In this document: one piece after another, positions 13,558-64,000 of the stretch
How positions within the stretch are numbered: the stretch's first letter is position 1
How the letters are laid out: every line of letters starts with the position of its first letter
Origin: a virus
Virus record (IMG/VR): IMGVR_UViG_3300027733_000028
Span: 1 to 64,000 of that record
Length of the DNA stretch: 64,000 bases
Strand: one strand, 5' to 3'
Position numbers and translations under genes: made by a program
The notes under the pieces: model-generated
Databases searched by the model: none
The model's input: the letters and a program-made list of their open reading frames with translations, nothing else
What the model was told of the DNA's origin: nothing

Positions 13558-14196
13558 ATGAAATTTTACAAATATCATGAATTTCTAAATGAGGCATCTA
13601 TTGCATCGGTGATTGATAGAATAGGAAATGAAGAGAATATTCAAATTGAAAATATGGATGATTATGTTAATCATTTCATAAATATAGGCGCAAAAAGGAT
13701 TGCCGGCGGTTCATCTGCTGAAATACTCGAATACCAAGGTGGAGTTATCAAGATATATGCTCCTATCAATGATCCAGGAATGACTAGATATTTAGCATTT
13801 TGTTTATCTAATAAAACGAATTCATATACTCCTAAAATAGAAAAAATTCTAAAGGTTTGGGCCAATGAAGAAAGATGGATATTTGCAGTATTCATGGAAA
13901 ATCTAGAAAAACCAAGTGGAGATTTTACCAATGAATTAAACATGTATTTAGAAACTCAATTAAAGGGATATCGTTTCGGTAATAATAAAGAGGATACCAA
14001 CTTTTTTGAAGGTTTAAAATCTATTATAATTAAATATTCAAAAGATTCAGATAAAAAATCTTTAAACGATATAATTGCATTCCTTAATGGATCAATTGAC
14101 AAATATCGATATCAGGTAGATTTTGGTCCTCAGAATTGGATGATGCGAAGAGGTCAATTAGTTTTAATTGATCCATTTTGGCCAAGTATGGAATAG
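13558..14196 (+). CDS. Kinase-like protein with capsid-targeting-type N-terminus
   Basis: 212 residues from the ATG at 13558, preferred over an earlier in-frame start at 13543 because it places the tag MKFYKYHEFLNE right at the N-terminus, followed by A (a gp21-type site). Residues about 40-65 (G-G-S-S-A-E-I, then G-G-V-I-K-I-Y) resemble the glycine loop and Lys strand of kinases. Near the C-terminus D-F-G-P-Q-N-W-M-M-R and L-V-L-I-D-P-F match the catalytic Asp/Asn and metal Asp segment of the compact phage protein-kinase/APH-like family. Likely a small phosphotransferase carried in the capsid. The substrate is unknown. The gene begins two bases after the tail-tube-like gene. Confidence 0.55.
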   Translation: MKFYKYHEFLNEASIASVIDRIGNEENIQIENMDDYVNHFINIGAKRIAGGSSAEILEYQGGVIKIYAPINDPGMTRYLAFCLSNKTNSYTPKIEKILKVWANEERWIFAVFMENLEKPSGDFTNELNMYLETQLKGYRFGNNKEDTNFFEGLKSIIIKYSKDSDKKSLNDIIAFLNGSIDKYRYQVDFGPQNWMMRRGQLVLIDPFWPSME

Positions 14197-14203
14197 GATT
14201 GAA

Positions 14204-14211
14204 TATATAAA
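14204..14211 (+). promoter_or_regulatory. Late-promoter-like TATATAAA motif
   Basis: TATATAAA lies 22 bases before the start at 14234, in a 37-base gap. The same element recurs before many head and tail genes here and resembles the T4 late -10 box TATAAATA. A gp55-like factor is encoded at 46882. Confidence 0.5.
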
Positions 14212-14233
14212 TTAATATAAAAACAACAAACTA

Positions 14234-14539
14234 ATGAATATCATTCCAACATTTGATGGATTTATTAACGAAGGAAAGATTTCCATCGGAAAAATGAATT
14301 TTTTTGTACGAGTTTTTAACGATGCAAAAGGACTATACGTACAATTTATACCGGATGGCAAGACTTTAGATAAATTTTCTAAGAATGACATGGTAGAAAA
14401 TATAAAAGATAAACTAGATTCAGCAATGCCTCAATTTGCAAGTGCTCTTTGGTTCGCAATTGACAATCAAGCCACAGGAGTAATTTTCAGATTAGACCCA
14501 TATAAATTAGAAGAAATAATTACAAAAGCTATTAAATAA
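14234..14539 (+). CDS. Small putative capsid-packaged protein
   Basis: 101 residues, no known family. The N-terminus MNIIPTFDGFINE followed by G fits the recurrent capsid-targeting tag of this genome; cleavage after Glu13 would leave an ~88-residue mixed alpha/beta protein. A late-promoter-like box lies 22 bases upstream. The stop overlaps the start of the next tagged gene by one base, so they are cotranscribed. Function beyond probable packaging is unknown. Confidence 0.6.
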   Translation: MNIIPTFDGFINEGKISIGKMNFFVRVFNDAKGLYVQFIPDGKTLDKFSKNDMVENIKDKLDSAMPQFASALWFAIDNQATGVIFRLDPYKLEEIITKAIK

Positions 14540-14904
14540 TGAAAACATTCAAAGAATATCTTATTGAAAGTAATACTTTCTCTGAAGAAGAAATCAAAGC
14601 ACTTAATGAAAATCTTAAGTCTGAATTAACTGAAGCTGAAGAAGCTAAAATCGATAAAGCTATCAAAGAATTTTGTAGTCAATATCTTGATAAAAACAAG
14701 AATATAAAAGAATTTAATGAAGAGCTTACAAATGAAGGTTTTCTAGGATCTATCCTAGGAGGTCTTACCGGTTTTGCTCTAGGATCTTCGATCGGTAAAA
14801 TTATTGCAAATGTACTAGGTATTGAGAGAGGCGTAATTTACGATTTACTAACAAGTAGACTTGTTGGAGCTGCATTAGGTGCTGCATTAGGAAAACGTGT
14901 ATGA
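14539..14904 (+). CDS. Putative packaged glycine-zipper protein
   Basis: 121 residues. The N-terminus MKTFKEYLIE is almost the T4 capsid targeting sequence, followed by S. An acidic helical segment (about residues 15-66) precedes a second site of the same type (E-E-L-T-N-E, then G-F-L-G). The C-terminal half is a hydrophobic, Gly/Ala-rich segment (G-x3-G-x3-G spacing) typical of glycine-zipper, membrane-active helices, ending in K-R-V. Two cuts by the prohead protease would release a ~55-residue membrane-seeking peptide. A role in membrane insertion during DNA ejection is inference. It overlaps the RuvC-like gene by four bases. Confidence 0.6.
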   Translation: MKTFKEYLIESNTFSEEEIKALNENLKSELTEAEEAKIDKAIKEFCSQYLDKNKNIKEFNEELTNEGFLGSILGGLTGFALGSSIGKIIANVLGIERGVIYDLLTSRLVGAALGAALGKRV

Positions 14905-15518
14905 TAATAGGAATTGATTTCTCAATTAACAGTACAGCCGTATCTATAAACGAAGGAGGTAACCTCACTCTATTTTCATTCGTTCCAAATTTTCAATCAG
15001 GTAAAGCCGCATTCAGAACACATGATGCAATACGAGAAATTGTCACGGTTGTTAGCTATAATAAAGAACCTAATACTAAAGATAGTTTAGAAGATCAAAG
15101 AATTAAGATTCGTAATGCTAACGAATTATCCGATCAAATAATATCTCACATTAGACCTTATTTAGAAGAAGCAGAATTTATCAATATAGAAGGTTTCTCA
15201 TTTGGATCTAAAGGAAATTCTTTCATCGATCTAATATCATACAATACATTTTTAAAAGTAAAACTGCTACAAATTGTAGGAGAGAAGATTTGGGTTATCC
15301 CTCCAAAATCTATTAAGAAGCTATATACAGGAAATGGCAATGCTTCAAAATGTATGATGGTTAATCGTTTCATGATGGATTCTTCTCCTCTTCGAGATAA
15401 AATCACCGAACTTGAATTTATTCAAGAAGGAGAATACGCTATCCCTAAACCGATTGACGATATTGTTGATGCCGTAGCTCTTTCTCGATTAAACCCGAGT
15501 ACACAATCCATCATATAA
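14901..15518 (+). CDS. RuvC-like Holliday junction resolvase
   Basis: 205 residues with the RNase H-fold acidic residues in RuvC order: G-I-D-F-S at residues 4-8 (Asp6), I-E-G-F-S-F-G near residue 95 (Glu), and D-D-I-V-D-A near residue 186 (paired Asp). It should cut Holliday junctions and branched DNA as a Mg-dependent dimer. In T4 the debranching enzyme before packaging is the unrelated gp49 (endonuclease VII); no gp49 is seen in this window, so this enzyme may do that job. It is located with head/tail genes rather than replication genes, which fits a late role. Confidence 0.75.
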   Translation: MIIGIDFSINSTAVSINEGGNLTLFSFVPNFQSGKAAFRTHDAIREIVTVVSYNKEPNTKDSLEDQRIKIRNANELSDQIISHIRPYLEEAEFINIEGFSFGSKGNSFIDLISYNTFLKVKLLQIVGEKIWVIPPKSIKKLYTGNGNASKCMMVNRFMMDSSPLRDKITELEFIQEGEYAIPKPIDDIVDAVALSRLNPSTQSII

Positions 15519-15539
15519 GTAGTTAAAGACTGTAATTTC

Positions 15540-18383: not shown

Positions 18384-18387
18384 TTAA

Positions 18388-19665: not shown

Positions 19666-19689
19666 ACGATTAAATATAAAATAAAACTT

Positions 19690-19956: not shown

Positions 19957-19959
19957 TTT

Positions 19960-20631: not shown

Positions 20632-20654
20632 AAAACATATAAGATAAATATATT

Positions 20655-21263
20655 ATGAAACATATACAAAGCTTCGACGATTTCTTAAATGAAGAAGAGA
20701 AGAAACCTAGAGTAGGTCATACTGTAAAAAGAGGACATTACAAATCAGATCCACCCGATATTGGTCTTTATTCTAAAGGAGGAAGAGACGCAATTAAAGG
20801 AACTGGATATGCCAACAAAGAAAAGGCAGAATTTACGGTAAAAGAGTTAGATAAACTTATGGACAAAGGTGAAAACGTTTGGGCTATGTCAATTGCAACT
20901 ACTATGGAATCTCGAGCTAAAAAACATCCTCATCAATCAGATGGAATGCGAGATGCCATGAAGATATTTCGTGAATGGATTGATAAAAATAAGAAAAGTG
21001 AAGGTGTTGAAGAAGCTGAAAGTAAAACTCTATTTTCTCCGGGTAAAGATGATGCAGTAAAAGGAACCGGTTATAAAGATGCAGAAGCGGCAAACAAAAC
21101 AATCACCATCATTAATAAATTAAATAAAACCGATCATAGTCACGCAATGGCAATTGCTACGACTATGGAGAATCGAGCTAAAACCCATAAATTTAGCACA
21201 CCTGATATGAAAGCTGCTGCCAAGATATTTAGAGAATGGATTGATAAAAATAGAACTACATAA
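20655..21263 (+). CDS. Putative packaged protein with duplicated DUF3175-like domain
   Basis: 202 residues. The N-terminal tag MKHIQSFDDFLNE precedes E, fitting the capsid-targeting pattern. Two copies of an ~75-residue module follow (about 35-115 and 122-202), each with G-K/G-G-x-D-A-x-K-G-T-G-Y, then A-M-(S/A)-I-A-T-T-M-E-(S/N)-R-A-K, then K-I-F-R-E-W-I-D-K-N. The modules resemble the small DUF3175 family, whose function is unknown. Basic overall, so DNA contact in the head is possible. The ATG of the next gene overlaps the stop. Confidence 0.6.
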   Translation: MKHIQSFDDFLNEEEKKPRVGHTVKRGHYKSDPPDIGLYSKGGRDAIKGTGYANKEKAEFTVKELDKLMDKGENVWAMSIATTMESRAKKHPHQSDGMRDAMKIFREWIDKNKKSEGVEEAESKTLFSPGKDDAVKGTGYKDAEAANKTITIINKLNKTDHSHAMAIATTMENRAKTHKFSTPDMKAAAKIFREWIDKNRTT

Positions 21264-27332: not shown

Positions 27333-27593
27333 ATGAAAGCTATTCCAAAATTTAATGAGTTTAAAACTGTAGGTATGAATGAAGCCCATGATAATGTTGA
27401 GCATTACATGTTCTTTAAGAATATCGAAACTATTAAAATGATGATCGATGATCTTATGCAAATGAATCCTACTGAAGTAGATATGCTTTTGAATAATGGA
27501 CACGATTGGGCAGCTGATCATATTGCATCTTCAAAAGATGATATTCAAGAAGTTACTGACTTCCTTAAAGGAGAAATAAAACAACAATCATAA
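27333..27593 (+). CDS. Small putative packaged protein
   Basis: 86 residues. The N-terminus MKAIPKFNEFKTVGMNE followed by A is a longer form of the capsid-targeting tag. The mature part (V-E-H-Y-M-F-F, then G-H-D-W-A-A-D-H-I and S-K-D-D-I) is a compact helical protein that looks conserved, with His and Asp residues that could bind metal. Function unknown. Confidence 0.6.
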   Translation: MKAIPKFNEFKTVGMNEAHDNVEHYMFFKNIETIKMMIDDLMQMNPTEVDMLLNNGHDWAADHIASSKDDIQEVTDFLKGEIKQQS

Positions 27594-27983: not shown

Positions 27984-29009
27984 ATGAAATTACTTAACTT
28001 TAATGAGTTCATTACTCATCTAAATGAATCACAAGAACTTCTATTAGAAGCTTTCAATTCGAGCATTCTACAAAGCATCGTGACTAAACAACGTCAAGGA
28101 GGAATTGATAAGAAATTCTTTGATATGCTTTCTAAAAACTATGGTATTGCTCCTTCTGAAGTAACTAACCTAGATATTAATATCGTTCAACCTGCAGATG
28201 CTGCTAAATATGCGGCTGCAAATCCAAATCAAATCTTAATTTATTATTCAACAACTGAAAAGGAAAATCCTTATGTTTCCAAAGATGGTAAATATTACTA
28301 CGGAACAATTAAAGCAGATGTTCCTTTAGCTATCGTTAAAGGTAAATTATTCATGGGGTTATCTTATGATCGTTGGGCTTCCAAAGGTGGAAAAGCCGTA
28401 TATAAATTAGTTCCTGGAACCGATGCTGGTTCTTCATTAGGACTTGATAACAAACAAGGTAGTGGATATGGTTCTAGTGGAATCAATACCCTTAAGAAAA
28501 TGGCAGATATTTCTGATATCGTTTATGCCATCAATCCGGATACAGTTCCTTCATCTAAACAAACTAGAGATGATCGAAAAGAATCTAAATCTGGTGCTGC
28601 TGCTTTTATCGATGATAAACAATTTAAAGCGGACAATCAAGCTAGATATGAAGCTATTTTAAAAGATCGTGCTTCTAATGAAGATATTGATGCAATAGTT
28701 TCTGCCGCAATCGAAGAGCTTACTGCACAAATTAAAGCGGCCGTAGCTAAAAAGACCATGACCAAATATGGAGATATTCTTGTTGGAACTTCACCTAAAG
28801 GAAGAGAAGTTAAAATGAGTGATGCTGGTAATCATATGAGTAACATTCTTAGAGATTATGGTTATTATGCTCAAGGTAAAAATGATCAAGCTAAATCTGA
28901 AGAACGTTGGGGTGAAATGGACAAATACCAACGTGATAGATCTGCTCAATATGCTAAATCTATTAAAGACGCTTATAACAAGATTAGTACTTTTAATTAC
29001 GCTTGGTAA
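27984..29009 (+). CDS. Putative packaged protein of 341 residues
   Basis: The N-terminus MKLLNFNEFITHLNE followed by S fits the capsid-targeting tag; another L-L-L-E-A site follows nearby. The body is soluble alpha/beta with Y-Y-Y-G and W-A-S-K-G-G segments, a G-S-G-Y-G-S-S-G loop and a charged helical C-terminus. No family recognised. The relatively large size makes an enzymatic or toxin-like internal protein possible, but no catalytic motif is evident. The next gene begins one base after the stop. Confidence 0.6.
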   Translation: MKLLNFNEFITHLNESQELLLEAFNSSILQSIVTKQRQGGIDKKFFDMLSKNYGIAPSEVTNLDINIVQPADAAKYAAANPNQILIYYSTTEKENPYVSKDGKYYYGTIKADVPLAIVKGKLFMGLSYDRWASKGGKAVYKLVPGTDAGSSLGLDNKQGSGYGSSGINTLKKMADISDIVYAINPDTVPSSKQTRDDRKESKSGAAAFIDDKQFKADNQARYEAILKDRASNEDIDAIVSAAIEELTAQIKAAVAKKTMTKYGDILVGTSPKGREVKMSDAGNHMSNILRDYGYYAQGKNDQAKSEERWGEMDKYQRDRSAQYAKSIKDAYNKISTFNYAW

Positions 29010-29010
29010 T

Positions 29011-29517
29011 ATGCCATCAACTTCAATTGCACAACAAAGACTTATGGGTCAGGCTTACGCTCTCAAAACTGGAGAGCTTAAGTCTTCTGACTTAGATCCT
29101 AAATATCGAAAACAAATAGAAGATCTAGCCGCATCAATGACAGAAAAAGACCTAAAAGACTTTGCTGAAACATCACATAAAGGCCTACCACAAAAAATAA
29201 AAGAAAACTATAAAATGAATAAACACATACCTACGTTCGAATCTTTCATTAATGAAAACATTGATGTTAAATATTGGGCAGGATATAATGATGATGCTGG
29301 AGTTCAAGGACAAAGCAAACATTATTCAGATAAATCAACAGATTTTGAGGATACCTTTGAAGATGCTGTTACTGAATGGAACCAAGAAGCTGATGGTGAA
29401 AATATGATAAAAGGTGCTCAAATTCAAAAGATCAAGAAATTAGCACAAGAATTCTTCAAGAAAGCCGGTTGGATATCTGTTAATGTTGTCCAAGCAATGA
29501 TTACTCAAGAATCTTAA
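29011..29517 (+). CDS. DUF3008-like domain fused to a capsid-tagged protein
   Basis: 168 residues from the ATG one base after the previous stop (an earlier in-frame ATG lies inside the upstream gene and is rejected). Residues 1-66 resemble the small DUF3008 family (Q-Q-R-L-M-G-Q-A-Y, K-D-L-K-D-F-A-E-T, H-K-G-L-P). Residue 69 is an internal Met (ATG at 29215) opening a perfect tag, MNKHIPTFESFINE, then an ~85-residue domain. The A-rich sequence before 29215 looks like a normal start region of this phage. Either a natural fusion or two overlapping products from one frame. Confidence 0.6.
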   Translation: MPSTSIAQQRLMGQAYALKTGELKSSDLDPKYRKQIEDLAASMTEKDLKDFAETSHKGLPQKIKENYKMNKHIPTFESFINENIDVKYWAGYNDDAGVQGQSKHYSDKSTDFEDTFEDAVTEWNQEADGENMIKGAQIQKIKKLAQEFFKKAGWISVNVVQAMITQES

Positions 29518-47534: not shown

Positions 47535-47930
47535 ATGTACGCAATTAAAACCTTTTCAGAATTCGTTAATGAAGGTAAAACTTCAGGATTTAATAGAACT
47601 TATACTATGGGTTCTACTTGGTGGGCTTTATGGAAAATTGAAAACAAAGAAGATTATACTATAAAACAAGATTCTTTTACTAAAACTTTCGAAGTGTATA
47701 CTAAAGATAAAGAACCTAAATTATCTTTCGTTTTTGATTATGGTCGTAATGTAGTTTTCACCAATGATTCACCTAAACAATTTGAGTTAAAAAGAGTTGA
47801 TCCTAAAGCAAAAGCTAAAGCCGAAGAAACCGATGCCGAAACTGGTAAAAAAGAAGTTCTTCCTGGTGGAACTCCAAAAGAGGAAGAAGCAGAAGGTGAA
47901 TTAGAAACCGATAAAACAGAAGAAGAATAA
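47535..47930 (+). CDS. Small putative packaged protein with acidic tail
   Basis: 131 residues. MYAIKTFSEFVNE followed by G is a clear tag. Residues about 20-90 are beta-rich with W-W-A-L-W and aromatic residues; the last ~45 are Glu/Lys-rich and probably disordered. Nine bases separate it from the previous gene. Confidence 0.65.
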   Translation: MYAIKTFSEFVNEGKTSGFNRTYTMGSTWWALWKIENKEDYTIKQDSFTKTFEVYTKDKEPKLSFVFDYGRNVVFTNDSPKQFELKRVDPKAKAKAEETDAETGKKEVLPGGTPKEEEAEGELETDKTEEE

Positions 47931-47946: not shown

Positions 47947-48267
47947 ATGAATCATTTACCAACATACTCGGATTTTATTCTAGGTCCTCCAATTGCATTT
48001 GATGGAACCAACTTAAAAGTTGGTCAAAGCATTGTAGCTGCTGATGGTTACTCGGGTATTATAATTTCAAGAGAAATGGTTAATGGACGAATAATGTTCA
48101 GGGATCATTTAGGAGTACATCATTTAGTTGAATCGCATAATGTAGTTATCGATGAAGCCATTAATGAAGATCTCAATGGTGGGAAGTTACCAAAGGTATA
48201 CTTGCTGCTGATGCAATTAAAACAGGAATGGCTATTGCCGGTGGTGGTCTTGCTATTGCCGCAGTAA
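47947..48267 (+). CDS. N-terminal part of a frame-broken head protein
   Basis: Nominally 106 residues, but only the first ~78 look like protein; the end (Y-L-L-L-M-Q-L-K-Q) is out-of-frame hydrophobic noise. The N-terminus M-N-H-L-P-T-Y-S-D-F-I-L is a weak variant of the capsid tag. A small beta domain follows (L-K-V-G-Q-S-I, F-R-D-H-L-G-V-H-H-L). Shifting back one base near 48181-48183 joins it to the next frame. Likely one gene broken by a one-base deletion or error. Confidence 0.5.
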   Translation: MNHLPTYSDFILGPPIAFDGTNLKVGQSIVAADGYSGIIISREMVNGRIMFRDHLGVHHLVESHNVVIDEAINEDLNGGKLPKVYLLLMQLKQEWLLPVVVLLLPQ

Positions 48268-48812
48268 TTTTCTCTCAATGGTTTGCCGGTATCTCTCAGA
48301 AAATGATTGCCGCTAGAAAAGATGCTAAATTGAAAGCTTCGGCTGGAGCAATCGCTACTAAATTTAACGATGATCCAGAATTAAATGGATTTATGACTAA
48401 ACTTCAACAATTCCCTTATATGAAGCCTCTTATGGCAGGTAAAAGAGAAACTGTTAAAGTTGCTGCCAATAATAAAGAAAGATCTAAGATCTTAAGAGAA
48501 ATGGCTAAATATGTAAAATCTAAACTAAATCAAGAAGAAATGGAATTCTTTATAGAAGTTAATAAGATGCTTAAAACCAAACCATTAGAAACTAATGATG
48601 GTCAAAAAGTTGAAGAAGATTTGCAACAAATGGCCGATGCTGTTTTAGATCCATCAAATTCTAATGCAGAATCTTCTATTAATAAAGATCCAAATAGAAC
48701 TGTTGGTACAGGAACTTATACCTCTACTGCATCAGATCTAAATGTGAAAACTAAAGGTATATACAAAACTAATGATCCTGCATCTGGTGGTTGGAATCCA
48801 ATTATGACTTAA
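48183..48812 (+). CDS. C-terminal part of the frame-broken head protein
   Basis: In the -1 frame from about 48183 the peptide reads E-V-T-K-G-I-L-A-A-D-A-I-K-T-G, then a hydrophobic Gly/Ala segment (A-G-G-G-L-A-I-A-A-V-I-F), then ~165 helical, charged residues. The first ATG (48228) lies inside the hydrophobic segment, so it is unlikely to be the true start. With the preceding piece this gives a ~285-residue protein: small beta domain, membrane-like helix, helical C-terminus. Possibly an internal head protein acting at the membrane on ejection; inference. Confidence 0.5.
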   Translation, partial: EVTKGILAADAIKTGMAIAGGGLAIAAVIFSQWFAGISQKMIAARKDAKLKASAGAIATKFNDDPELNGFMTKLQQFPYMKPLMAGKRETVKVAANNKERSKILREMAKYVKSKLNQEEMEFFIEVNKMLKTKPLETNDGQKVEEDLQQMADAVLDPSNSNAESSINKDPNRTVGTGTYTSTASDLNVKTKGIYKTNDPASGGWNPIMT

Positions 48813-48866: not shown

Positions 48867-49169
48867 ATGAAAAATTTAATGTCTTTCGACGAATTCGTAG
48901 TTAATGAAGCTGGTAAATACGATGCTTCAGGATTTAATCCGGCAGCAGAAGCTACTAGCGATGAATTCAATCAAGAATTAACTCCAGGAAAAAAATACAA
49001 TGTTAAAAAAGGAGAAGAAACTTCTCTTTGCATTTATCAAGGTAATACTGACGGAGTTTATATCTTCAACCCAGAAGCTAAAGAAGATGGTATAACTACT
49101 TCTCCATGTGAATTTACTGAAGCTGAATATGCTGCTGCATTTAAAGCTGGTGAAATCGTTGCTGCTTAA
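48867..49169 (+). CDS. Small putative packaged protein, single-copy repeat domain
   Basis: 100 residues. Tag MKNLMSFDEFVVNE followed by A. Then one copy of a ~60-residue domain (L-T-P-G-K-K-Y, I-Y-Q-G-x-T-D-G-V-Y-I-F-N, then an acidic helix ending A-G-E-I-V) that occurs twice more in the next protein. Confidence 0.65.
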   Translation: MKNLMSFDEFVVNEAGKYDASGFNPAAEATSDEFNQELTPGKKYNVKKGEETSLCIYQGNTDGVYIFNPEAKEDGITTSPCEFTEAEYAAAFKAGEIVAA

Positions 49170-49190: not shown

Positions 49191-49976
49191 ATGAAGAATC
49201 TAAAAACATTTTCTGAATTCGTATCAGAAGCCGCTGAATTTAATCCAGCTAATACATCTGATATAGATGTTCTATTGCCTGCAATTAAATCTGCATCAGA
49301 GCTAATGCCTGGTAAAGAATACGTCATTAAATTAGATGGTAAAACTCATTCGAATATGATGTATCAAGGAGTAAGTGATGGTAGTTATATCTTCAATTCC
49401 GAAGATATGGAAACTGTGCTTAATCTTAAGGATGACCAAATTAATAGTGCTGTTTCTGATGGTGGTGTTCAACCAGTAAATGAAGCAGTTAAAAGAACTG
49501 CAGATCAAGTAAATAAAGATGCAGAAGATCGAATCAAAAATCAAATTGCTCGTTATTCAGAAATGATGAAATCTAAACCAGAAAAAGCTAATGTTTATAA
49601 AGCTCAATTGGATTTAGCTCATGCTAAAATGACGGTTGTTAATTTGAAGAAAAAGGTTGATGCTCTAAGAGAATCTACCGAATTAGATGAATCTAAACTT
49701 TATAAAGGAAAAGAAGTTTTACCTGATTATATTGATCCACGAAGAGATTTTGGTGCTCCTGTTAAAAACAGTAAAGAGTTAAAAGTTGGTGCTGAATATG
49801 TTATATATGAGCCTGGAATGGATAACTGGCAAGCAGAAAACATTTATCAAGGTTACACTGGTGGAATTCATATATTCAATTCATCTACACAATTTGGTGA
49901 AGCGGAACCTCTAGAATTAACTGACAAAGAATTAGAATCAGCTATTAAAGATGGCGAAATTATTAAACAAAACTAA
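49191..49976 (+). CDS. Putative packaged protein with two repeat domains
   Basis: 261 residues. Tag MKNLKTFSEFVSE followed by A. Repeat domain copy 1 is at about 37-97 (L-M-P-G-K-E-Y, M-Y-Q-G-V-S-D-G-S-Y-I-F-N), a helical linker at about 100-165 with a further site P-V-N-E-A at its start, and copy 2 at about 197-258 (L-K-V-G-A-E-Y, I-Y-Q-G-Y-T-G-G-I-H-I-F-N). Paralogous to the preceding gene, so a duplicated internal-protein family. Confidence 0.65.
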   Translation: MKNLKTFSEFVSEAAEFNPANTSDIDVLLPAIKSASELMPGKEYVIKLDGKTHSNMMYQGVSDGSYIFNSEDMETVLNLKDDQINSAVSDGGVQPVNEAVKRTADQVNKDAEDRIKNQIARYSEMMKSKPEKANVYKAQLDLAHAKMTVVNLKKKVDALRESTELDESKLYKGKEVLPDYIDPRRDFGAPVKNSKELKVGAEYVIYEPGMDNWQAENIYQGYTGGIHIFNSSTQFGEAEPLELTDKELESAIKDGEIIKQN

Positions 49977-51264: not shown

Positions 51265-52878
51265 ATGGCAGGCTTTGTAAATAGAGAGGAAACCTACGCT
51301 GGTAGACCATCCGCATCTTCGAGAAATGTCGTTTCTAAAGCTCTTAAGTCGTTATCATCTTTCGGGATGATATACGATGATATGGTTCTTAGAAACTCAA
51401 AAGCCATAGGTATCAATGAAGACCGTTTCGGTTGGAGATTAGATCCAAGAAATGCAGCCGGTGGTGAATATGACGATTATGCTCTATTTGCCAACCTTTC
51501 AATGACGGATATTAATCTCCGTAAAAGTATTTCTATTTTTGACAAATCTTATATTAAAAAGAGAGAGGATCTTAGAAAATTCTCTATTCAAGATGAAATT
51601 GAAGAGATTCTCGATACCCTATGTGACGAATGTGTCGTCTATGACGAAAAAAATTACTTCTGTACACCATTAACTTTTGATGATCAGACACTTGAACCGG
51701 AAACACTAGAAGCCGTTAAGTATGCATTAGATACAAACTTTAAAAGAGTTTATCAATACTTTGGTTTCAATAACGATATTTCTGCTTGGTCTTATTTTCG
51801 TAAATGGTTAATTGATGGATATCTCGCATTTGAGATTATCTACAATAAAGAACAAACTAGAATTATCGGTTTCAAAGAACTTGATCCAGTATCTTTAGAA
51901 CCAGGTCTTGATAAAGAGGGTAAGAAAATTTGGAAACAATTTAAAGCTCAACCTGGTAAAGAAAGAGTTATATATGATTCTCAACTAATTTATCTTTCAT
52001 ATGCACATGCCAATACCGTAAGTCGTGTTTCTTACGTAGAACGTCTTATTCGTGCATTTAACTTGCTTCGTATCATGGAGCATTCAAGAGTTATTTGGGC
52101 TACGGTAAATGCCTCATTCAAAACTAAATTTGTAATTCCGGTTGGTGGTAAATCCAAAACTAGAGCTCGTCAAAGCTTAGGTGTTTTGATGCAAAATTAT
52201 CGTGAGAATATTGATTTTGATACAGAATCAGGAGAACTTAAAGTTAACGGTAAACCAATGATGCCTTTCAATAAAGAGTATTGGTTACCATCCGGTGAAG
52301 CTGGAGAACCTACTATCGAGAATATTGGTAATGATGGTCCAGATTTATCAGATACAGATGCTCTTAAATATTTCCGAGAAAAACTAATTAAAGTATCTAA
52401 AATTCCTCTTTCTCGTTTTGATATGGAATCACCTCCATCATGGGAAATGAATGCTGAAGGTATGACAAGAGATGAAATTAAATTTGGTCGTTTTGTTAAT
52501 CGTATGCGTTCAGTTTATCAAGAGATTCTTGTTAAACCATTATGGATTCAAATGTGTTTAGACTTTCCAGAACTTAAAGAAGATGATGCTTTTAAAGCTC
52601 AAATTGGAATTAAGTTTAACAAATATAACATCTTTGAAGAAATGAAAGAAATTGAAATCCTTCAAAAACGTCTAGATTTTGTTACTTCAATGAAAGATGG
52701 TCTTGTTGAACAAGATGCTAATATGAACGAAATCAAGTATTTTGCATCAGAATTCTTAATTCAACGTTTCTTAGGTTTATCATCAGATGATATCCGAACT
52801 AATAAGAAAATGAAAGAAATTGAAGATGAAGAAAAAATTGCTTCTGCTAAGAAAGCTGCTGAAGCAACTGGAATGTAA
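51265..52878 (+). CDS. 20: Portal protein, gp20-like
   Basis: 537 residues (T4 gp20: 524). The C-terminal half carries the portal signature M-T-R-D-E-I-K-F-G-R-F-V followed by a helix and W-I-Q-M, with P-L-S-R-F as in gp20. Twelve copies form the packaging vertex, prohead initiator and neck attachment. Directly upstream of the protease and capsid genes, as in T4. Confidence 0.9.
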   Translation: MAGFVNREETYAGRPSASSRNVVSKALKSLSSFGMIYDDMVLRNSKAIGINEDRFGWRLDPRNAAGGEYDDYALFANLSMTDINLRKSISIFDKSYIKKREDLRKFSIQDEIEEILDTLCDECVVYDEKNYFCTPLTFDDQTLEPETLEAVKYALDTNFKRVYQYFGFNNDISAWSYFRKWLIDGYLAFEIIYNKEQTRIIGFKELDPVSLEPGLDKEGKKIWKQFKAQPGKERVIYDSQLIYLSYAHANTVSRVSYVERLIRAFNLLRIMEHSRVIWATVNASFKTKFVIPVGGKSKTRARQSLGVLMQNYRENIDFDTESGELKVNGKPMMPFNKEYWLPSGEAGEPTIENIGNDGPDLSDTDALKYFREKLIKVSKIPLSRFDMESPPSWEMNAEGMTRDEIKFGRFVNRMRSVYQEILVKPLWIQMCLDFPELKEDDAFKAQIGIKFNKYNIFEEMKEIEILQKRLDFVTSMKDGLVEQDANMNEIKYFASEFLIQRFLGLSSDDIRTNKKMKEIEDEEKIASAKKAAEATGM

Positions 52879-52919: not shown

Positions 52920-54821
52920 ATGAGTCAAAAGTATTTGCTCGTATTGGAAAGATCTTCTTCTGAATTGGACATCAAAACAGAAGGTGACAATTACATCCTA
53001 GAAGGAATCTTTACAGAAATCGGCGTTAAAAACAAAAACAATCGTATTTACGACGAAAAGGAAGTTCTTCCTCACATAGATGAACTTCTTCAAAAAGTAA
53101 AAGGAAGTAAACTTTTAGGTGAATTAGATCATCCTAAATCTTTTGAAGTTTCTTTAAAAAATGCTTCTCATGTTATTGAAGCTTTAGATTACGACAAAAA
53201 CACTAAGAAGGTAATGGGAAGAATCCGTTTACTTAATACTAGTGCTGGAAAAGAAGCAAAGGCTCTGGTTGATGCTGGTATTCCTTTACACATTTCTAGT
53301 CGTGCTGCTGGAGTGGTTGAAAGTAATGGTCACGTTAAAATCAAAAAAATGTTTACTTACGATTTAGTTGCAGATCCTGGATTTGCTAATGCTGAATTAT
53401 CAAGAGTAAATGAAGCATTTGGATTTGAAATGGATGATACATTAGGTCTTTACGAAATGCCTTATAGTGCTAAATTAGCCGAGTCTTTCGAAGATCACGA
53501 AAAAATTGATGAAAACAAACAAACTCAAAACATAAACAAATCTTCAAAAATGAATAATACAACAGAGAACATATCAGTTGAAGATTTTAACGAATATACA
53601 AAAATCGTTAAAAACGAAATTGAAAATCTTAAAAAACAAATCGCTGAAAGTAACACTGATTCTGTAACTGAAAGTACTGAATCATTAGTTAAGTACACTG
53701 AAACTATTGCCAAACGAGTAAATCAAATCCAAGAAAATTTAGGATCTTTAAAAGAGAACTTCGATCATTTGATATCTCACAATGATTACATCGTAGAAAA
53801 CCTTGAAAAGGTTAAAGATTACGCTGAAATGGTTGGCGAAAAATCAAATCAAGGAATTAACTACTCAGAAAAACTTGCTGAATCGGTTGACCACTTAATT
53901 GAATATACTAAAATGGTTGCTGAAAAAGCAGATAGTGGAATTTCTTACACTGAAAGAATTGCTGAATCTGTTGATTCTTCGATCGAATATCAAAATCATG
54001 TTGCTAAAGAAGTTAATGAGCGTTTTGCTTATCAAACTTACATCAATGAACAAGTTGACAATATCATTTCACATACCGATTATATCGTTGAAGGTTGTGA
54101 TTCAATTATTAAGTACAGTGAGTACCTAAAAGAGAATCAAGCAAGCTTAACCGGTTATATGGATTATGTTGTTAAAGGTCTTAACGAAGGTACTTCTAAT
54201 AACGATCCATCCGATAATAACAAATCTGAAAATGCAAACGAAGATGATACTAAAGTAAATGAAAATGCTGAAGCTATCAATTCAACTGAAAGTGCTGATG
54301 ATTTTGAAAATGAAATTAACTCTAGAGTTGATGCTATTTTAGAATCTGCTAAATCCCAAAAAGATGAAGAGAAAAAATCTAAAATGCATTTCTTTAATTT
54401 CTTAGCTGAATCTAAAAGAAACGAATTTGAATCTTTAACTGCTGAAGTTCAAGAAAAAATTGTTGATCTTTTCGAAAATACTAAATGGTACGGATCAATT
54501 GATGCTAATAACATCTGGGAATCTGCTTTCACTAAACCAGTTGCTAAAAATGATTGGTTAGCTAATATGCCAAATCGTTATAACGAAGCTTGGAATTCTT
54601 TAAACGAATCTCAAAAGAATGCTATTAAAGCTCAAGCATCAGTAAGAGTTCTTAGTACACAATATCAAATCGATTCATTTTGGTCTTCAAGAGATTTAAG
54701 AGTTTCTAAAGTAGAATCAACTGAACCGGTTGCTCCTATTAACGAATCTTCTAAGTATGAAACTCCTCAAGATTATATGGATACTGTTGCTGCTGAATTA
54801 AAACGTAGATTCAAAAGATAA
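52920..54821 (+). CDS. 21: Prohead protease (gp21-like) fused to scaffold-like coiled coil
   Basis: 633 residues. Residues 1 to about 165 match the gp21 protease (T4: 212 residues): G-E-L-D-H-P with His71, I-S-S-R-A with Ser126/127, and Y-D-L-V-A-D-P-G-F. A site R-V-N-E-A at residue 165 could allow self-release. Residues about 211-420 form repeated coiled-coil units (E-Y-T-K-M-V-A-E-K-A, then E-R-I-A-E-S-V), followed by an acidic linker and a globular C-terminus with P-I-N-E-S. The second part looks like the prohead core scaffold gp22, normally a separate gene. Met211 (ATG at 53550) lies in spacer-like sequence and may start scaffold alone. Confidence 0.8.
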   Translation: MSQKYLLVLERSSSELDIKTEGDNYILEGIFTEIGVKNKNNRIYDEKEVLPHIDELLQKVKGSKLLGELDHPKSFEVSLKNASHVIEALDYDKNTKKVMGRIRLLNTSAGKEAKALVDAGIPLHISSRAAGVVESNGHVKIKKMFTYDLVADPGFANAELSRVNEAFGFEMDDTLGLYEMPYSAKLAESFEDHEKIDENKQTQNINKSSKMNNTTENISVEDFNEYTKIVKNEIENLKKQIAESNTDSVTESTESLVKYTETIAKRVNQIQENLGSLKENFDHLISHNDYIVENLEKVKDYAEMVGEKSNQGINYSEKLAESVDHLIEYTKMVAEKADSGISYTERIAESVDSSIEYQNHVAKEVNERFAYQTYINEQVDNIISHTDYIVEGCDSIIKYSEYLKENQASLTGYMDYVVKGLNEGTSNNDPSDNNKSENANEDDTKVNENAEAINSTESADDFENEINSRVDAILESAKSQKDEEKKSKMHFFNFLAESKRNEFESLTAEVQEKIVDLFENTKWYGSIDANNIWESAFTKPVAKNDWLANMPNRYNEAWNSLNESQKNAIKAQASVRVLSTQYQIDSFWSSRDLRVSKVESTEPVAPINESSKYETPQDYMDTVAAELKRRFKR

Positions 54822-54929: not shown

Positions 54930-56540
54930 ATGTACTTAATTAACGAAAGTGAAATTTTTTCAAAATGGGCTCCAATTATCGAGTCTAATACTGGAATCAC
55001 TGAGCGTGCTAGAGTTGAGTGGATGTCAAAATATTGCCATAACCACGAATTATATGAGAACAACTCATATGCACAACTAGGCGCTGTGAACGGTATGGGT
55101 GCTACTCGTTTCCCTGGAAACCCTGGTACTCAAGATGCTTTTGCTACATCCACTTCTGGATCTGGTGATAAAGCTCACACATTGCTACCTCTTGCTATGC
55201 AAGTTGCAGCTCAAACAATCGGATTGGATTTAGTTCCAGTCGTGCCAATGCCTGGTCCAATGGGTGTATTAACTTACTTGGATTTCGTATATGCTGGTGG
55301 TAAAACTGCTGGTACTGGTGCTGATGTTCCTTTAATGGTTAAATTAGACTACGGTTCTAACACTATCCCTTCATTTACTGTAGGTGGTTCTGGTGCTTCT
55401 GGTGGTGCTACTTTCTACATGGTAGGATCTTCTCGTTTGGATGGTAATCCAATCTTACGTGTTGCTGGAACTTTAACTGGTTCTAACACAATCAAAGATT
55501 GTTTAACTAACATCACAATCGGTGGTGCTTCTGCTGGAACTGTTACTAACTATTCTATCGAATTAGTTAAAGCTTTAGAAGATCACATCACTGGATTCTC
55601 TGGTAATGCTCTTGCTAACAACGATTACACTGGATTTGATATTAACGATCCATATTCTCGTAACGACGGTGAAAGTACTACAGATAACGTAATGAACTTA
55701 AGTCTATTCAACAAATCAGTTGAAGCTAAGACTTTCCAAGTTGCTGCTGCTGTTACTCGTGAGCAAGTTCAAGACTTGAAACAATTTGGTATTGATGCAG
55801 TTTCTCAAGTAGAAGCAGTTCTTATCAATGAGTTAACTCAATCAATTAACAAGAACATCCTTGGACGTATCTTCGCTTTAGGAGAAAGAAACCACGAATA
55901 CGTAATCCGTACTCAAGGTCAAAACTTCTTCTTGAACTTAGGTGCTACTGCCCTTTTAGTTTCTAACTCTGCGTCAGCAACTAACTTCGGTTCATTTATC
56001 CAATCAACTACTTTACGTGGTGCTACAATGGCTGCTACTGAAAACGTTAACTCTGCTTCAGAAAACATGCATACTCGTCAACGTAAAATTATGTCTAAAG
56101 TATTAGCTATCGCTAACTTAATCGCTATTAGAGGTCGTCGTGGACCAGCTACTTTCGTAGTTACTAACGGTCAAGTTTGTTCAGCTTTACAAGACGTTGC
56201 TGGTTTCGTACCTGCTCCAATGGCTAACACAATTAACCAAATGAGTGGTTCACTTTATCCTATCGGTACTTTAGCTGGTATGGCAGTGTACAACGATCCT
56301 AACATGAACTGGGCAGATACTCGTTTCTGCGTAGGTCGTAAAGGTGACGGTAACTCTCCAGGATTAGTATTCATGCCTTATTTAATGGCTGAAAGCGTTC
56401 AAACTATCGCTGAAGGTACTATGGCTCCTAAAGTTGCGGTTAAATCTCGTTATGCTTTAGTTGAAGCTGGTTTCCACCCAGAAACTATGTACTTAACTTC
56501 AGGTGTATCTTTAAGTGCTACATTCGGTTCTTTAGTATAA
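54930..56540 (+). CDS. 23: Major capsid protein, gp23-like
   Basis: 536 residues (T4 gp23: 521). The N-terminus contains S-E-I-F-S-K-W-A-P-I-I-E, matching A-E-L-L-N-K-W-K-P-L-L in T4, followed by a removable arm and then G-A-V-N-G-M-G-A-T-R-F. The core includes P-M-P-G-P-M-G-V, V-T-R-E-Q-V-Q-D-L and R-G-R-R-G-P-A. Maturation by the gp21-like protease is expected after a Glu within the first ~70 residues. Codon use (AAC, CGT, GGT) shows strong bias, unlike neighbours. A textbook terminator follows. Confidence 0.93.
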   Translation: MYLINESEIFSKWAPIIESNTGITERARVEWMSKYCHNHELYENNSYAQLGAVNGMGATRFPGNPGTQDAFATSTSGSGDKAHTLLPLAMQVAAQTIGLDLVPVVPMPGPMGVLTYLDFVYAGGKTAGTGADVPLMVKLDYGSNTIPSFTVGGSGASGGATFYMVGSSRLDGNPILRVAGTLTGSNTIKDCLTNITIGGASAGTVTNYSIELVKALEDHITGFSGNALANNDYTGFDINDPYSRNDGESTTDNVMNLSLFNKSVEAKTFQVAAAVTREQVQDLKQFGIDAVSQVEAVLINELTQSINKNILGRIFALGERNHEYVIRTQGQNFFLNLGATALLVSNSASATNFGSFIQSTTLRGATMAATENVNSASENMHTRQRKIMSKVLAIANLIAIRGRRGPATFVVTNGQVCSALQDVAGFVPAPMANTINQMSGSLYPIGTLAGMAVYNDPNMNWADTRFCVGRKGDGNSPGLVFMPYLMAESVQTIAEGTMAPKVAVKSRYALVEAGFHPETMYLTSGVSLSATFGSLV

Positions 56541-56604: not shown

Positions 56605-56626
56605 GTTTGTAGCTTTTGCATGAATA

Positions 56627-56634: not shown

Positions 56635-56643
56635 AAATACGAT

Positions 56644-56652: not shown

Positions 56653-56655
56653 GAA

Positions 56656-57279: not shown

Positions 57280-57298
57280 TACCAAAAAGATAATATAC

Positions 57299-59884: not shown

Positions 59885-60372
59885 TGGAAATATTTAGACA
59901 AAATCTAGGTAAACGTCCAACGAAGTTCGGTATCGTTCTCGATCGATTAAAACCTAGATATCAAAAAATATTGAAGAAGAATCCCATCATTCGTAATTAT
60001 TCTACGGATGATAGGCTTCTTAAATGTATCTTCAAAATAGAAGATCGATTAATACAAGTATCACATCTAAAAAGAGTTTTTATCGAACCTAAAAGTGGAG
60101 AAATATCTTCATTTAAAATCATCAGGGAATCATATCATCAATTTGATTGGAATTGTACTTTTTGCAATAAACCTATCAAATCTCGTATAGATAATTATGA
60201 ACCAGGAAACTTTACTTGCATGAAATGCGAGAATACATATATTAAAGGAACTCGAAAAATTCCAAGAAGAATTATCGAGGAATCTTTGAGATTCACAGAA
60301 CATGTGAAAACCTTAATGAAAGAAGATCAAAAGAAAATTATAAAATATATCAAGAAAAATGATGAATCTTAA
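59884..60372 (+). CDS. Zinc-finger-like protein of unknown function
   Basis: 162 residues, basic. Central C-T-F-C-N and C-M-K-C-E pairs (about residues 96-120) indicate a four-Cys zinc site; helical basic ends suggest nucleic acid contact. It overlaps both neighbours by a few bases (start shared with the previous stop region, stop inside the next gene). Not a known T4 protein. Confidence 0.65.
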   Translation: MEIFRQNLGKRPTKFGIVLDRLKPRYQKILKKNPIIRNYSTDDRLLKCIFKIEDRLIQVSHLKRVFIEPKSGEISSFKIIRESYHQFDWNCTFCNKPIKSRIDNYEPGNFTCMKCENTYIKGTRKIPRRIIEESLRFTEHVKTLMKEDQKKIIKYIKKNDES

Positions 60373-61864
60373 ATACTTCAGTGATTTTGTTAACGAAGCA
60401 AAAACCACTGACGCAAAAACTGTTAAAAATCCGAGAGTTAAATTAGTACTTCTAACAAATGCTAGTAAAGAATCTCATACAGTTCCTACCTTTGCAGCCG
60501 AATGTAAAAAAATGGGTGCTGAATTTATCGTTATTGATATTAGTACAGCAATGATTGCCGAAACCAAAGATGGTAATTTTCTAATCAGTGATAAAGAAAA
60601 TCCCAAAGGTCTTAAAATCAATGCTGATAATACCGCAATTCTTACTCGTCGTGGAGTTGTTAGAAATACTTATACAAAATCTCTAGTTGAAAAACTTCAA
60701 GATAATAACTTCTTTGTGGTTAATACTCTTGAAGCTATTATGGCTTGCGAAAACAAATATGTTACTACTAAAATCCTTAAAGAAGCTGGAATTCCAGTTC
60801 CTAAAACTGCAATCGTTGATGGAGAAGATTCTATTGATAGAGCGGTTAAAGATATTGGTGGTAAATTTCCAGTAGTATGTAAGATACTTTCCGGATCTCA
60901 AGGAATTGGAGTTTCTATCGTTGATTCTCTTGCTTCTCTTAAATCAGTTCTACAAACCATTTGGAAAGTGGATCCTTCAGTTGAAATCTTGATTCAAGAG
61001 AAAATTGAATCTGAATATGATTTAAGAATACACGTTTTGACGAGAAAATTCAACTCGCCAACACCAGAAGATACAGATTCAGTACTTCTTGGTTATATGA
61101 GAAGAAATCGTGTTAAAAAAGACTTCCGTACCAATTACTCATTAGGAGGAACTGTTGAAAAAACTAAAGTAACTCCAGAACAAGAAAAAATTGCTATCGA
61201 ATCAGCTAAGGCGGTTGGTTGCAATTGGTGTGGTGTGGATATTATTGTAGATAAGAAAACTGGAAAAAATTACGTACTTGAAGTTAATGCTTCTCCCGGA
61301 ACTACCGGATTAAAGAAAGCAACTGGAGTTAACGTGGTTAAAGATATCGTTCAATTCTTAATGGATAAAACCAATTGGATTCGTTCTAGAAAACGTGTTG
61401 GATTCCGTGAAGTTATTACAATTCCTAATATTGGAGATATGGTTGCTAAATTTGATACCGGTAATGGATCTCTTTCATGCACAATCACTTATGATAAATT
61501 AGATGTAAATGAGAAAGAGAAGATTGTTAAATGGACACTTGGTGGAAGAGATTTTGAATCTAAATTTGTAGGATTCACTGAAACTGAAGTAGGTGATACT
61601 ATCGAGAAACGTCCTGTTATCGAAATGGATATTCAATTTGCTGGTAAAGTTTATAAGAAAGTTCAAGTTGCATTAGATGATCGCTCAACCAAGAGTACTA
61701 AATTCCTTGTGAATCGTAAATTCATGGAGAGAATTGGTTGTTCCGTTGATCCAATGAGAACCTTCATCGTATCCTCATTCCCAGTAGCTTATCATGGTGG
61801 AGAAGCGAAGAAAGAGCCACATGCCGGAATTATTTTCGAATGGGATAAAAAGAAAACTAAATAA
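60359..61864 (+). CDS. ATP-grasp ligase fused to RimK-type zinc-protease-like domain, capsid-tagged
   Basis: 501 residues. Residues 1-13 (MMNLKYFSDFVNE, then A) form a clear capsid-targeting tag. Residues about 27-335 are a RimK-like ATP-grasp ligase: C-K-I-L-S-G-S-Q-G-I-G-V near 174-185, E-Y-D-L-R near 219, and metal/ATP residues in L-E-V-N-A-S-P-G (307-314). Residues about 345-480 resemble the retropepsin-like 'ATP-dependent zinc protease' domain linked to RimK genes, with F-D-T-G (365-368) and V-A-L-D-D-R. It may add amino acids to, or trim, a host protein after injection. Substrate unknown. Confidence 0.75.
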   Translation: MMNLKYFSDFVNEAKTTDAKTVKNPRVKLVLLTNASKESHTVPTFAAECKKMGAEFIVIDISTAMIAETKDGNFLISDKENPKGLKINADNTAILTRRGVVRNTYTKSLVEKLQDNNFFVVNTLEAIMACENKYVTTKILKEAGIPVPKTAIVDGEDSIDRAVKDIGGKFPVVCKILSGSQGIGVSIVDSLASLKSVLQTIWKVDPSVEILIQEKIESEYDLRIHVLTRKFNSPTPEDTDSVLLGYMRRNRVKKDFRTNYSLGGTVEKTKVTPEQEKIAIESAKAVGCNWCGVDIIVDKKTGKNYVLEVNASPGTTGLKKATGVNVVKDIVQFLMDKTNWIRSRKRVGFREVITIPNIGDMVAKFDTGNGSLSCTITYDKLDVNEKEKIVKWTLGGRDFESKFVGFTETEVGDTIEKRPVIEMDIQFAGKVYKKVQVALDDRSTKSTKFLVNRKFMERIGCSVDPMRTFIVSSFPVAYHGGEAKKEPHAGIIFEWDKKKTK

Positions 61865-62759: not shown

Positions 62760-62768
62760 TTTGTCAAT

Positions 62769-62777
62769 CATATAATT
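62769..62777 (+). promoter_or_regulatory. CATATAATT motif upstream of gp44
   Basis: Single copy 20 bases before the gp44 ATG; same word as upstream of other replication genes. Confidence 0.4.
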
Positions 62778-62797
62778 AAAACAATTCAAATCTTAAT

Positions 62798-63748
62798 ATG
62801 AAGGTATCAAATATGTTATGGACCGAGAAATATCGTCCAAAGGTTCTAGAAGAACTTATTCTCCCTGAACGTGTCTTTGCCAAAGTTAAAAATGGCGTAT
62901 ATCAAAATCTACTTTTTTATGGTGGTCCAGGCAGTGGAAAAACTTCTACGGCAAAAGTACTTGCCAAAGAACATCCAACAATGTATATCAATTGCTCATC
63001 AGAAACTGGTGTCGATGTGGTTCGCACAAAAATCACAGAATTCTGCTCGACTCTTTCTGTAATCGATGGTGAACGTAAAATGAAAGTGGTTATTCTCGAC
63101 GAGTTCGATGGTGTATCTGATCAATATATGAAAGCTCTTCGTGGAACAATCGAACAATTTCATAAAACTGCTCGTTTTATTGCAACTTGTAATTACTTCA
63201 ATAAGATTCCCGATAATATTCAATCTCGATTCGAATGTATTAACTTCGACTTTTCCGACGAAGAATCTAAAGAAATCGAAAAGAAATATCTTCGTCGAGT
63301 ATTTGATATTCTTAAGACTGAAGGTATGGAAATCGAAAAAGATGCTTTACTTGAATTAGTTCGTCGTAAATTCCCAGATCTTCGTGCTACCATCTCGATT
63401 CTTCAAGGTTATAATGCCGAAGGAAGAAATAAAATTACATCCGAAGATGTGAAGAAATTTCATGGTGTATTCCGTGATCTTTACGAACACATATTCTCAA
63501 CTAATGACGAAATCAAGAATTATCAATTTCTCGTTTCCAATTACTCAAATCGAGTTGAAGATGTTATTCAAGCATTAGGAACTGAATTTATCGAATATAT
63601 TCAACTCGAAAAACCTCATCTAATGCGTAAAGTTGGTGAAATCTGTTTCGAAACAAATCGACACTCTTACGAACAACGTTTTGTAATTGATCCGGTAATT
63701 ACCATGCTTTCTTTGGTTTATAAAATACAGGCAATCGTACGATCTTAA
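62798..63748 (+). CDS. 44: Clamp loader large subunit, gp44-like
   Basis: 316 residues (T4 gp44: 319). AAA+ ATPase: W-T-E-K-Y-R-P-K at the start, Walker A G-G-P-G-S-G-K-T near residues 42-49, Walker B V-V-I-L-D-E-F-D, A-T-C-N sensor, and arginine-finger-like Q-S-R-F-E. With gp62 it loads gp45 onto primer ends; no gp62 gene was recognised in this window. Confidence 0.92.
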   Translation: MKVSNMLWTEKYRPKVLEELILPERVFAKVKNGVYQNLLFYGGPGSGKTSTAKVLAKEHPTMYINCSSETGVDVVRTKITEFCSTLSVIDGERKMKVVILDEFDGVSDQYMKALRGTIEQFHKTARFIATCNYFNKIPDNIQSRFECINFDFSDEESKEIEKKYLRRVFDILKTEGMEIEKDALLELVRRKFPDLRATISILQGYNAEGRNKITSEDVKKFHGVFRDLYEHIFSTNDEIKNYQFLVSNYSNRVEDVIQALGTEFIEYIQLEKPHLMRKVGEICFETNRHSYEQRFVIDPVITMLSLVYKIQAIVRS

Positions 63749-63757
63749 ATCACTAGA

Positions 63758-63765
63758 TATATAAA
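63758..63765 (+). promoter_or_regulatory. Late-promoter-like TATATAAA motif
   Basis: 18 bases upstream of the tagged gene at 63784, directly after gp44. Confidence 0.5.
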
Positions 63766-63783
63766 GTAATAAAACATCAGAAT

Positions 63784-64000
63784 ATGAAACATATACAAAA
63801 TTTTGAGGAATTCGTTAACGAATCGATCATAAACGAAGGTAAATTCACTGACGTTTGGCCAACAATGCCTTACGGAGATTGGAAATCTGAATATGACATT
63901 CCAAATAGCATTCAAAAAGAGCTATACCTGGAACTTCAATCTAAATTAGGTTCTAAGTCAGTAAAGGTAAAAGAAGACATTGAAGACCGAGCAAAATCTC
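63784..64000 (+). CDS. Putative packaged protein, 3' end outside window
   Basis: The first 72 residues are visible. MKHIQNFEEFVNE followed by S is a clear tag, and I-I-N-E-G five residues later could be a second site. The rest (D-V-W-P-T-M-P-Y-G-D-W) is soluble, with no family recognised. Cut by the window edge. Confidence 0.65.
   Translation, partial: MKHIQNFEEFVNESIINEGKFTDVWPTMPYGDWKSEYDIPNSIQKELYLELQSKLGSKSVKVKEDIEDRAKS

Follow-up and report, generated by a model that had tools for sequence, protein, structure and literature searches.

Head genes and a recurrent N-terminus in the phage record

The stretch analysed here (the window) comprises the first 64,000 bases of the 207,040-base IMG/VR virus record IMGVR_UViG_3300027733_000028, in which the head genes form a T4-type module of portal, protease-scaffold fusion and major capsid protein, and in which a short N-terminal tag recurs with the spacing of the capsid-targeting sequence of the T4 internal proteins (IPs). 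Genes in the record were simple open reading frame (ORF) calls (n=291), and the sequences of the relatives used for comparison are in part fragments. A sibling record, whose capsid protein is identical, is 254 kilobases (kb) long and adds 48.8 kb. In a phage collection the capsid protein was nearest to a 462-kb metagenomic phage (54%) and to Prevotella Lak phages (40%), with further matches to Tenacibaculum, Sphingomonas PAU and Chryseobacterium phages (32-34%), and the host is therefore probably a bacterium of the Bacteroidota.

An earlier note had listed 14 proteins of the window that share this N-terminus; all 14 starts are ATG codons of plus-strand ORFs with the N-terminus as described. 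A strict motif with T4 spacing ([FYW]..[FYW][ILVMFA].E, starting at residue 2-9) is present in 11 of them, and in the other three the aromatic pair is kept and the xNE cut site is moved by 1-5 residues (27333, FNEFKTVGMNE; 27984, FNEFITHLNE; 48867, FDEFVVNE). A search of the whole record, which the note had proposed, extended the set well beyond these 14: the strict tag occurs on 33 of the 291 genes, hand curation added 8 further genes with the aromatic pair and a displaced site, giving 41 tagged genes, and the sibling assembly contains 3 more. By chance we would expect 0.69 strictly tagged genes from the internal motif rate, or 0.65 on average (maximum 5) from 1000 shuffles of residues 2-30 of every gene, and the excess has a Poisson P of about 3e-43, for a strict count slightly inflated by a few alternative starts that were picked to fit the tag. 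The strict set has the consensus M-K-x-I-x-T-[FY]-x-x-F-[LIV]-N-E-[AGS], with the final Glu in 33/33, Asn in 28/33 and Phe as the second aromatic residue in 29/33, and its leaders end within the first 10-19 residues. Because the general frequency of the Asn-Glu (NE) dipeptide is raised only slightly in tagged proteins (4.8 vs 4.3 per 1000), the effect lies in defined sites and not in composition.

As a positive control, the T4 genome was scanned in the same way: the IPII/IPIII pair (MKTYQEFIAEA) came up as two strict IP-type genes, and IPI (MKTFKEFTSTTTPVSTITEA) came up with a displaced site, so that a displaced cut site is also seen in T4. The T4 hypothetical protein gp61.1 (NC_000866, 18966-19130) starts with MKTFKEFIKED, a strict capsid-targeting match, and might be an overlooked T4 internal protein.

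Distribution of the tag among phages

Six relatives, in which 0.3-1.1 strict tags each would be expected, also carry them: 48/449 genes in G002, 29/321 in G003, 31/217 in G006, 26/217 in G009, 18/116 in G010 and 18/232 in G005. The 462-kb phage LR756500 has 14 tags in 200 kb, including one on the ligase orthologue, and the same scan gave 4 in T4, 5 in KVP40 (200 kb), 4 in S-PM2 and 3 in MA9V-1. Since counts are high in the relatives and LR756500 and low or nil in other T4-like phages, the tag set is a strong expansion in one lineage of a device that the T4 superfamily already had. Altogether, seven phages contain 249 tagged proteins in 134 body families, 33 of which are represented in this record. 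The description of the bodies as otherwise unrelated is mostly right; it fails for the pairs 48867/49191 and 20655/174080, each of which has a common domain.

Protease, scaffold and the T4 register

In T4 IPIII (MKTYQEFIAE), residues 4 (Tyr) and 7 (Phe) govern targeting, and residues 8 (Ile) and 10 (Glu) govern processing (PMC9026906). The tag follows this register, with the two aromatic residues, the hydrophobic residue and Glu at the same relative positions. A gp21 homologue, reported in the earlier note, is present, and its alignment with T4 gp21 shows conservation of Ser (T4 position 140) and of a GEL[ND]HP (His-Pro) motif. Directly after the protease domain stands a conserved RVNE/[ASN]FG (RVNE/AFG in 52920..54821), which sits where an autocleavage site would be expected, and four further sites follow in its scaffold. 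The site [ILVM][NS]E/[AGSN] occurs 4-7 times in the fused scaffold of 7/7 related phages against 0.5-0.7 expected, and eleven large non-head proteins used as controls have 0-2 such sites. A second cut site at residues 13-40 was found in 8/41 tagged and 3/250 untagged genes (P 1e-5).

The tag avoids the conserved gene set: none of the 39 core genes (those with homologues in T4, PAU, PTm1, MA9V-1 or MaF61) is tagged, compared with 38 of 257 others (P 0.004), and the untagged core includes replication, tail and nucleotide-metabolism genes with named homologues, so that the pattern is not equally frequent in replication proteins. A search at E 1e-5 gave no T4 homologue for any of the tagged proteins, and hence none matches IPI-III or Alt; the mechanism does not require such homology.

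Conservation, cassettes and polyproteins

Comparison among related phages, another check proposed beforehand, showed that the tag is kept in 204/237 orthologue pairs between genomes, although leader sequence and length drift; many of the remaining 33 pairs are degenerate leaders or start-codon artefacts. Apparent tag loss in G005_74133 and G003_231750 was discounted, as these look like leaders with non-ATG starts. All 26 loci homologous to the RimK-like gene 60359, down to 45% identity, have a leader ending in NEA, with leaders that differ in sequence and length and do not always keep the aromatic pair. Among orthologues of 134103 the leader ranges from about 20 to about 40 residues, and E/GGAYGHL is invariant in the intact ones. 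Leaders that vary while NEA and E/GGAYGHL stay fixed conform to the pattern of a removable leader and a constant mature N-terminus. The T4 spacing, the gp21 homologue, the cut motif in the scaffold, the untagged core and this retention in orthologues together strongly support the reading of the N-terminus as a T4-type tag.

In the neighbouring genes 84424, 84693, 85159 and 85766, the DNA of codons 1-14 is 93-98% identical, whereas the 30 bases upstream are 30-57% and codons 15-40 are 27-46% identical; copies of a single leader thus stand before different bodies. The motif also recurs inside proteins. Five [VI][NS]E[AG] sites, against 0.3 expected, lie within the 507-residue product of 136672-138195 (outside the window), and in other phages the stretches between these sites turn up in other tagged proteins; ESVNE/GETLIFDEIG, e.g., corresponds to a sequence of G002 that directly follows an N-terminal tag, MKNLQTYEEFLNE/GQYFIFDEIG. 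In 49191-49976 the order is tag, domain, internal PVNE/A (Glu at residue 98), module and a second copy of the first domain, and the internal PVNE/AVKRTADQVNKD matches the module of the separate tagged protein G003_57455, MKNFESFDEFLNE/ATKRTPDQVNKD. Of 16 exchanges between internal and N-terminal modules, some of which are orthologous to one another and not independent, 13 have a hydrophobic-x-Glu aligned to the tag Glu of the partner, compared with a mean of 3.7 and a maximum of 10 in 2000 trials with shifted positions. Across proteins of the clade, internal sites are about twice as frequent in tagged (1.63 per 1000) as in untagged proteins (0.75). The best reading of these sequences is that the prohead protease site serves as a general joint, and that some cargo would enter the prohead as a chain and be split into its modules there; on this evidence the product of 136672-138195 is a predicted polyprotein cargo, that of 49191-49976 is probably another, and polyprotein cargo is a new element of the system. 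The modules of the 136672 polyprotein are small, with no Pfam domain above cut-off.

Features of the window and identities of the cargo

Features of the window, together with tagged genes elsewhere in the record for which a domain or motif was recognised, are listed in Table 1.

Table 1. Tagged genes, head genes and candidate members of the system (record positions; a slash marks the predicted cut; aa, amino acids)
Position	Strand	Feature	Basis
13558..14196	+	Tagged protein, MKFYKYHEFLNE/A, 212 aa	Strict motif
14234..14539	+	Tagged protein, MNIIPTFDGFINE/G, 101 aa	Strict motif; tagged orthologue in G005
14539..14904	+	Tagged protein, MKTFKEYLIE/S	Strict motif
20655..21263	+	Tagged protein, MKHIQSFDDFLNE, 202 aa	Strict motif; domain shared with tagged 174080
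27333..27593	+	Tagged protein, displaced site, MKAIPKFNEFKTVGMNE/A	Aromatic pair and displaced xNE
27984..29009	+	Tagged protein, displaced site, MKLLNFNEFITHLNE/S, 341 aa	Aromatic pair and displaced xNE
29215..29517	+	Tagged protein, MNKHIPTFESFINE/N, 100 aa	Strict motif; internal ATG of ORF 28858-29517
44503..45255	+	Tagged protein, MSIKSYDEFVNE, 250 aa; further site ERVNE/GLFED	Motif; tagged orthologues in six relatives
45284..46690	+	Untagged protein, 468 aa; candidate prohead core protein	[ILVM][NS]E sites, 3 vs 0.6 expected, P 0.02
47247..47525	+	Tagged protein, MSTIKTFSEFINE/A, 92 aa; possible second site RSNE/A	Strict motif
47535..47930	+	Tagged protein, MYAIKTFSEFVNE/G, 131 aa	Strict motif
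47947..48812	+	Degenerate member, MNHLPTYSDFILGPP, aromatic pair without cut site	Orthologous to tagged G003_77778
48867..49169	+	Tagged protein, MKNLMSFDEFVVNE/A, 100 aa	Displaced site; same domain as 49191
49191..49976	+	Probable tagged polyprotein, tag MKNLKTFSEFVSE/A	Strict motif; internal PVNE/A site
51265..52878	+	Portal protein, gp20 homologue	phrog_213, 7e-72
52920..54821	+	Prohead protease (gp21 homologue) fused to scaffold-like C-terminal part	phrog_207, 6e-42
54930..56540	+	Major capsid protein, gp23 homologue	phrog_138, 8e-36
60359..61864	+	Tagged RimK-family alpha-L-glutamate ligase, tag MMNLKYFSDFVNE/A	TIGR00768, 1e-44; Pfam RimK, 2e-34
63784..64000 (window end; gene to 64182 in record)	+	Tagged protein, MKHIQNFEEFVNE/S, second site IINE/G	Strict motif
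92923		Tagged family 2 glycosyltransferase	Recognised domain
134103 (outside window)		Tagged RNA-ligase-like protein	Motif only: KTDG
136068		Tagged cytidylyltransferase-like protein	Recognised domain
138195		Tagged polymerase-beta-type protein	Motif only: GS..GD[IV]D
141253		Tagged DUF5856 protein	Recognised domain
170905		Tagged polymerase-beta-type protein	Motif only: GS..GD[IV]D
173301 (outside window)		Tagged ADP-ribosyltransferase-like protein	R-S-E motifs only
174080 (outside window)		Tagged KTSC protein	Recognised domain
174685		Tagged PAP2 phosphatase	Recognised domain

The earlier note had expected a broad arsenal including enzymes, and the enzyme part of this is borne out by the RimK-type ligase and others among the tagged proteins. 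The 60359 protein scores above the curated cut-off of TIGR00768 (153 vs 143.4 bits); it is an ATP-grasp protein with GVDI and EVNASPG motifs that was aligned to 7qyr and 5zct, and its C-terminal region is a RimB/RloA2-like retropepsin. In the ligase-like 134103 protein, KTDG is invariant in 8 sequences, and a fold search with a model of pLDDT (predicted local distance difference test) 69 placed T4 Rnl2 and Rnl1 on top with weak E values of 0.05-0.12. In some relatives (G010 13960/15245; L128, L224, L225) an apparent intein lies exactly at K/TDG of this ligase-like cargo. The regular expression for the ADP-ribosyltransferase motifs of 173301 is unique among 3256 proteins; the protein has no profile match, and its model has a pLDDT of 38. 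G010 also encodes a tagged P-loop protein, and we hypothesise that the RNA-ligase-like protein, the nucleotidyltransferases and this protein would fit a group of RNA-repair proteins brought in at entry.

The product of 13558..14196 has no Pfam match, and some orthologues of 27333..27593 have F..FVNE directly. The product of 14539..14904 has a second conserved site, LTNE/GFLGSILGG, ahead of a hydrophobic glycine-rich C-terminal part; this segment (GFLGSILGGLTGFALGSSIGKIIANVLGI) is kept in relatives and may, once mature, be active on membranes. The two ORFs 47947-48267 and 48228-48812 seem to form a single gene with a frameshift; the G003 and G005 orthologues appear undivided, and the frameshift may be an assembly error.

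Elsewhere in the window, two ORFs (30784-32184 and 36242-37450) both match the T4 DNA polymerase gp43, with ribonucleotide reductase genes in between, and the polymerase gene appears to be split in two. Low-complexity repeats on both strands at the end of the record (204861-207040) are probably tail-fibre repeats. Promoters that have a TAnnTTTG box of the Bacteroidota type (GTTAATAACTTT...ATTTTTTTATTCC...TATTATATTTG) lie at fourteen sites in 64292-200443 of the record and are nearly identical; none of these is inside the window or directly upstream of any tagged gene, and the T4-type late promoter (TATAAATA) was found upstream of 0/41 tagged genes.

Proposed mechanism and alternative explanations

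The system is a much expanded variant of the T4 internal-protein (capsid-targeting) system. We propose that the protein docks on the prohead core by the aromatic face of its leader (Phe/Tyr at i, Phe at i+3, Leu/Ile/Val at i+4), and that in this phage the core is the scaffold part of the protease fusion. Next, the gp21-like protease would cut after Glu in [LIV]NE/[AGS], the leader would leave, and the body would remain in the head with the DNA and be delivered at infection. The leader is an exchangeable cassette, nearly the same DNA being joined to different bodies, and the cut motif doubles as an internal joint, by which several small effectors might be chained as a polyprotein and released from it in the prohead. 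From the sequence pattern we are highly confident that the shared N-terminus is a T4-type capsid-targeting propeptide whose cargo is packaged and cleaved. By analogy with T4, it is likely that the tagged bodies are injected as effectors, which may act against the first-response defences of the host and in early takeover. Somewhat more tentatively, we favour an open delivery system, in which an exchangeable leader and a protease-site joint could load almost any protein, singly or chained, and in which about a tenth of the gene repertoire would be virion-delivered effectors, including RNA-repair-like and protein-modifying enzymes.

Several points weigh against the proposed mechanism. The tag is absent or near chance in PAU (0), MaF61 (0), Lak-B1 (0, first 200 kb) and PTm1 (2), and the system is therefore not universal in this branch of the superfamily. 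No clear NE site is seen at the N-terminus of the major capsid protein, where ELYE or IIES might serve instead, we found no virion proteomics for this phage or clade in the open literature, and many tagged proteins, indeed most, are small and have no known function. The last point would also suit a reading, to us unlikely, in which the cargo is packaged and cut and most of it acts inside the head, in core assembly or DNA packing; T4 IPIII does have a role in head morphogenesis (PMC9026906). However, bodies that turn over rapidly and fall into 134 families in seven phages do not look like structural parts, and a head has no evident use for RimK ligase, glycosyltransferase, cytidylyltransferase and PAP2 domains. 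Moreover, T4 IPIII, which is required on strain ECOR17, works in the host cytoplasm without its targeting sequence, and IPI acts against GmrSD by inhibiting it (PMC9391042).

It is improbable that the N-terminus is some other address or regulatory leader (for a replication compartment, the membrane or protein turnover) or a conserved translation-initiation element, as might be suggested by the strictly N-terminal position of the tags and the near-identical DNA in one cluster; the exact T4 spacing, the same motif in the scaffold and between modules, and a protein pattern that is retained while sequence and length drift across orthologues all speak against this, and an N-terminal address would leave the internal NE joints unexplained. 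Even less credible is one expanded family with an N-terminus common by descent: some bodies are alike (48867/49191 and 20655/174080), but common descent of the bodies was rejected because the 249 tagged proteins fall into 134 families (33 in this record) with unrelated domains among them. Chance or compositional bias, which a short motif in an AT-rich genome and up to 8 control matches per strand for a looser DNA pattern might suggest, has a negligible probability and was rejected, with 33 strict genes against fewer than one expected and the excess repeated in six relatives.

Significance and comparison with known systems

For the internal proteins of T4 an anti-defence role is either established or suspected, but each phage has so far yielded only a few of them. 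Where the leader can be read from sequence, proteins that are delivered along with the DNA can be looked for by a sequence search, which here gives 249 candidates, most of them with no known function and plausibly active ahead of all phage gene expression. Chaining of effectors in polyproteins, if true, would be a new means of bringing in several of them with a single targeting event, and a set of Bacteroidota-phage leaders would be of practical use in delivering proteins. We found no earlier description of such a tag set in the open literature: the papers on capsid targeting sequences, as far as their accessible parts go, concern T4, SPN3US, P1, P22 and T4-based vaccines or vectors, and the accessible parts of the 'moraphage' and bS21-phage papers on Bacteroidota phages do not mention capsid-targeting tags.

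Among known systems, polyvalent proteins of phages and conjugative elements likewise combine several effector domains per polypeptide, and their catalogue includes ADP-ribosyltransferases and polymerase-beta nucleotidyltransferases. Their release is in many cases predicted to depend on peptidase domains of their own, or else they are not cut (PMC5512222), whereas here small modules are joined by sites for a separate prohead protease, and the 136672 protein lacks several recognisable catalytic domains. In P1 an N-terminal signal of DarB suffices to package a reporter; more than 9 residues are needed, and the Dar proteins have no common consensus (PMC9024508). Giant phages of the phiKZ-like and SPN3US-like groups also process many of their head proteins with a gp21-related protease that cuts after Glu; their ejection proteins have propeptides of mostly more than 100 residues (PMC5694885) and no shared short leader, in contrast to the short leaders found here. 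T4 Alt is a packaged and processed enzyme known to be delivered to the host, a route that would apply here by analogy; Alt itself is not matched, and the tagged 173301 protein has only ADP-ribosyltransferase-like motifs. The closest likeness is to T4 IPI, IPII and IPIII, which have the same leader of 10-19 residues, the aromatic pair three apart, the hydrophobic-x-Glu site, a gp21-type protease and small, diverse bodies. T4, however, has a handful of such proteins, whereas this phage has about 41 in the 207 kb of the record, enzymes and proteins of 500 residues among them, with a consensus ending in NE, protease and scaffold in one polypeptide, and some of the cargo apparently arranged as polyproteins.

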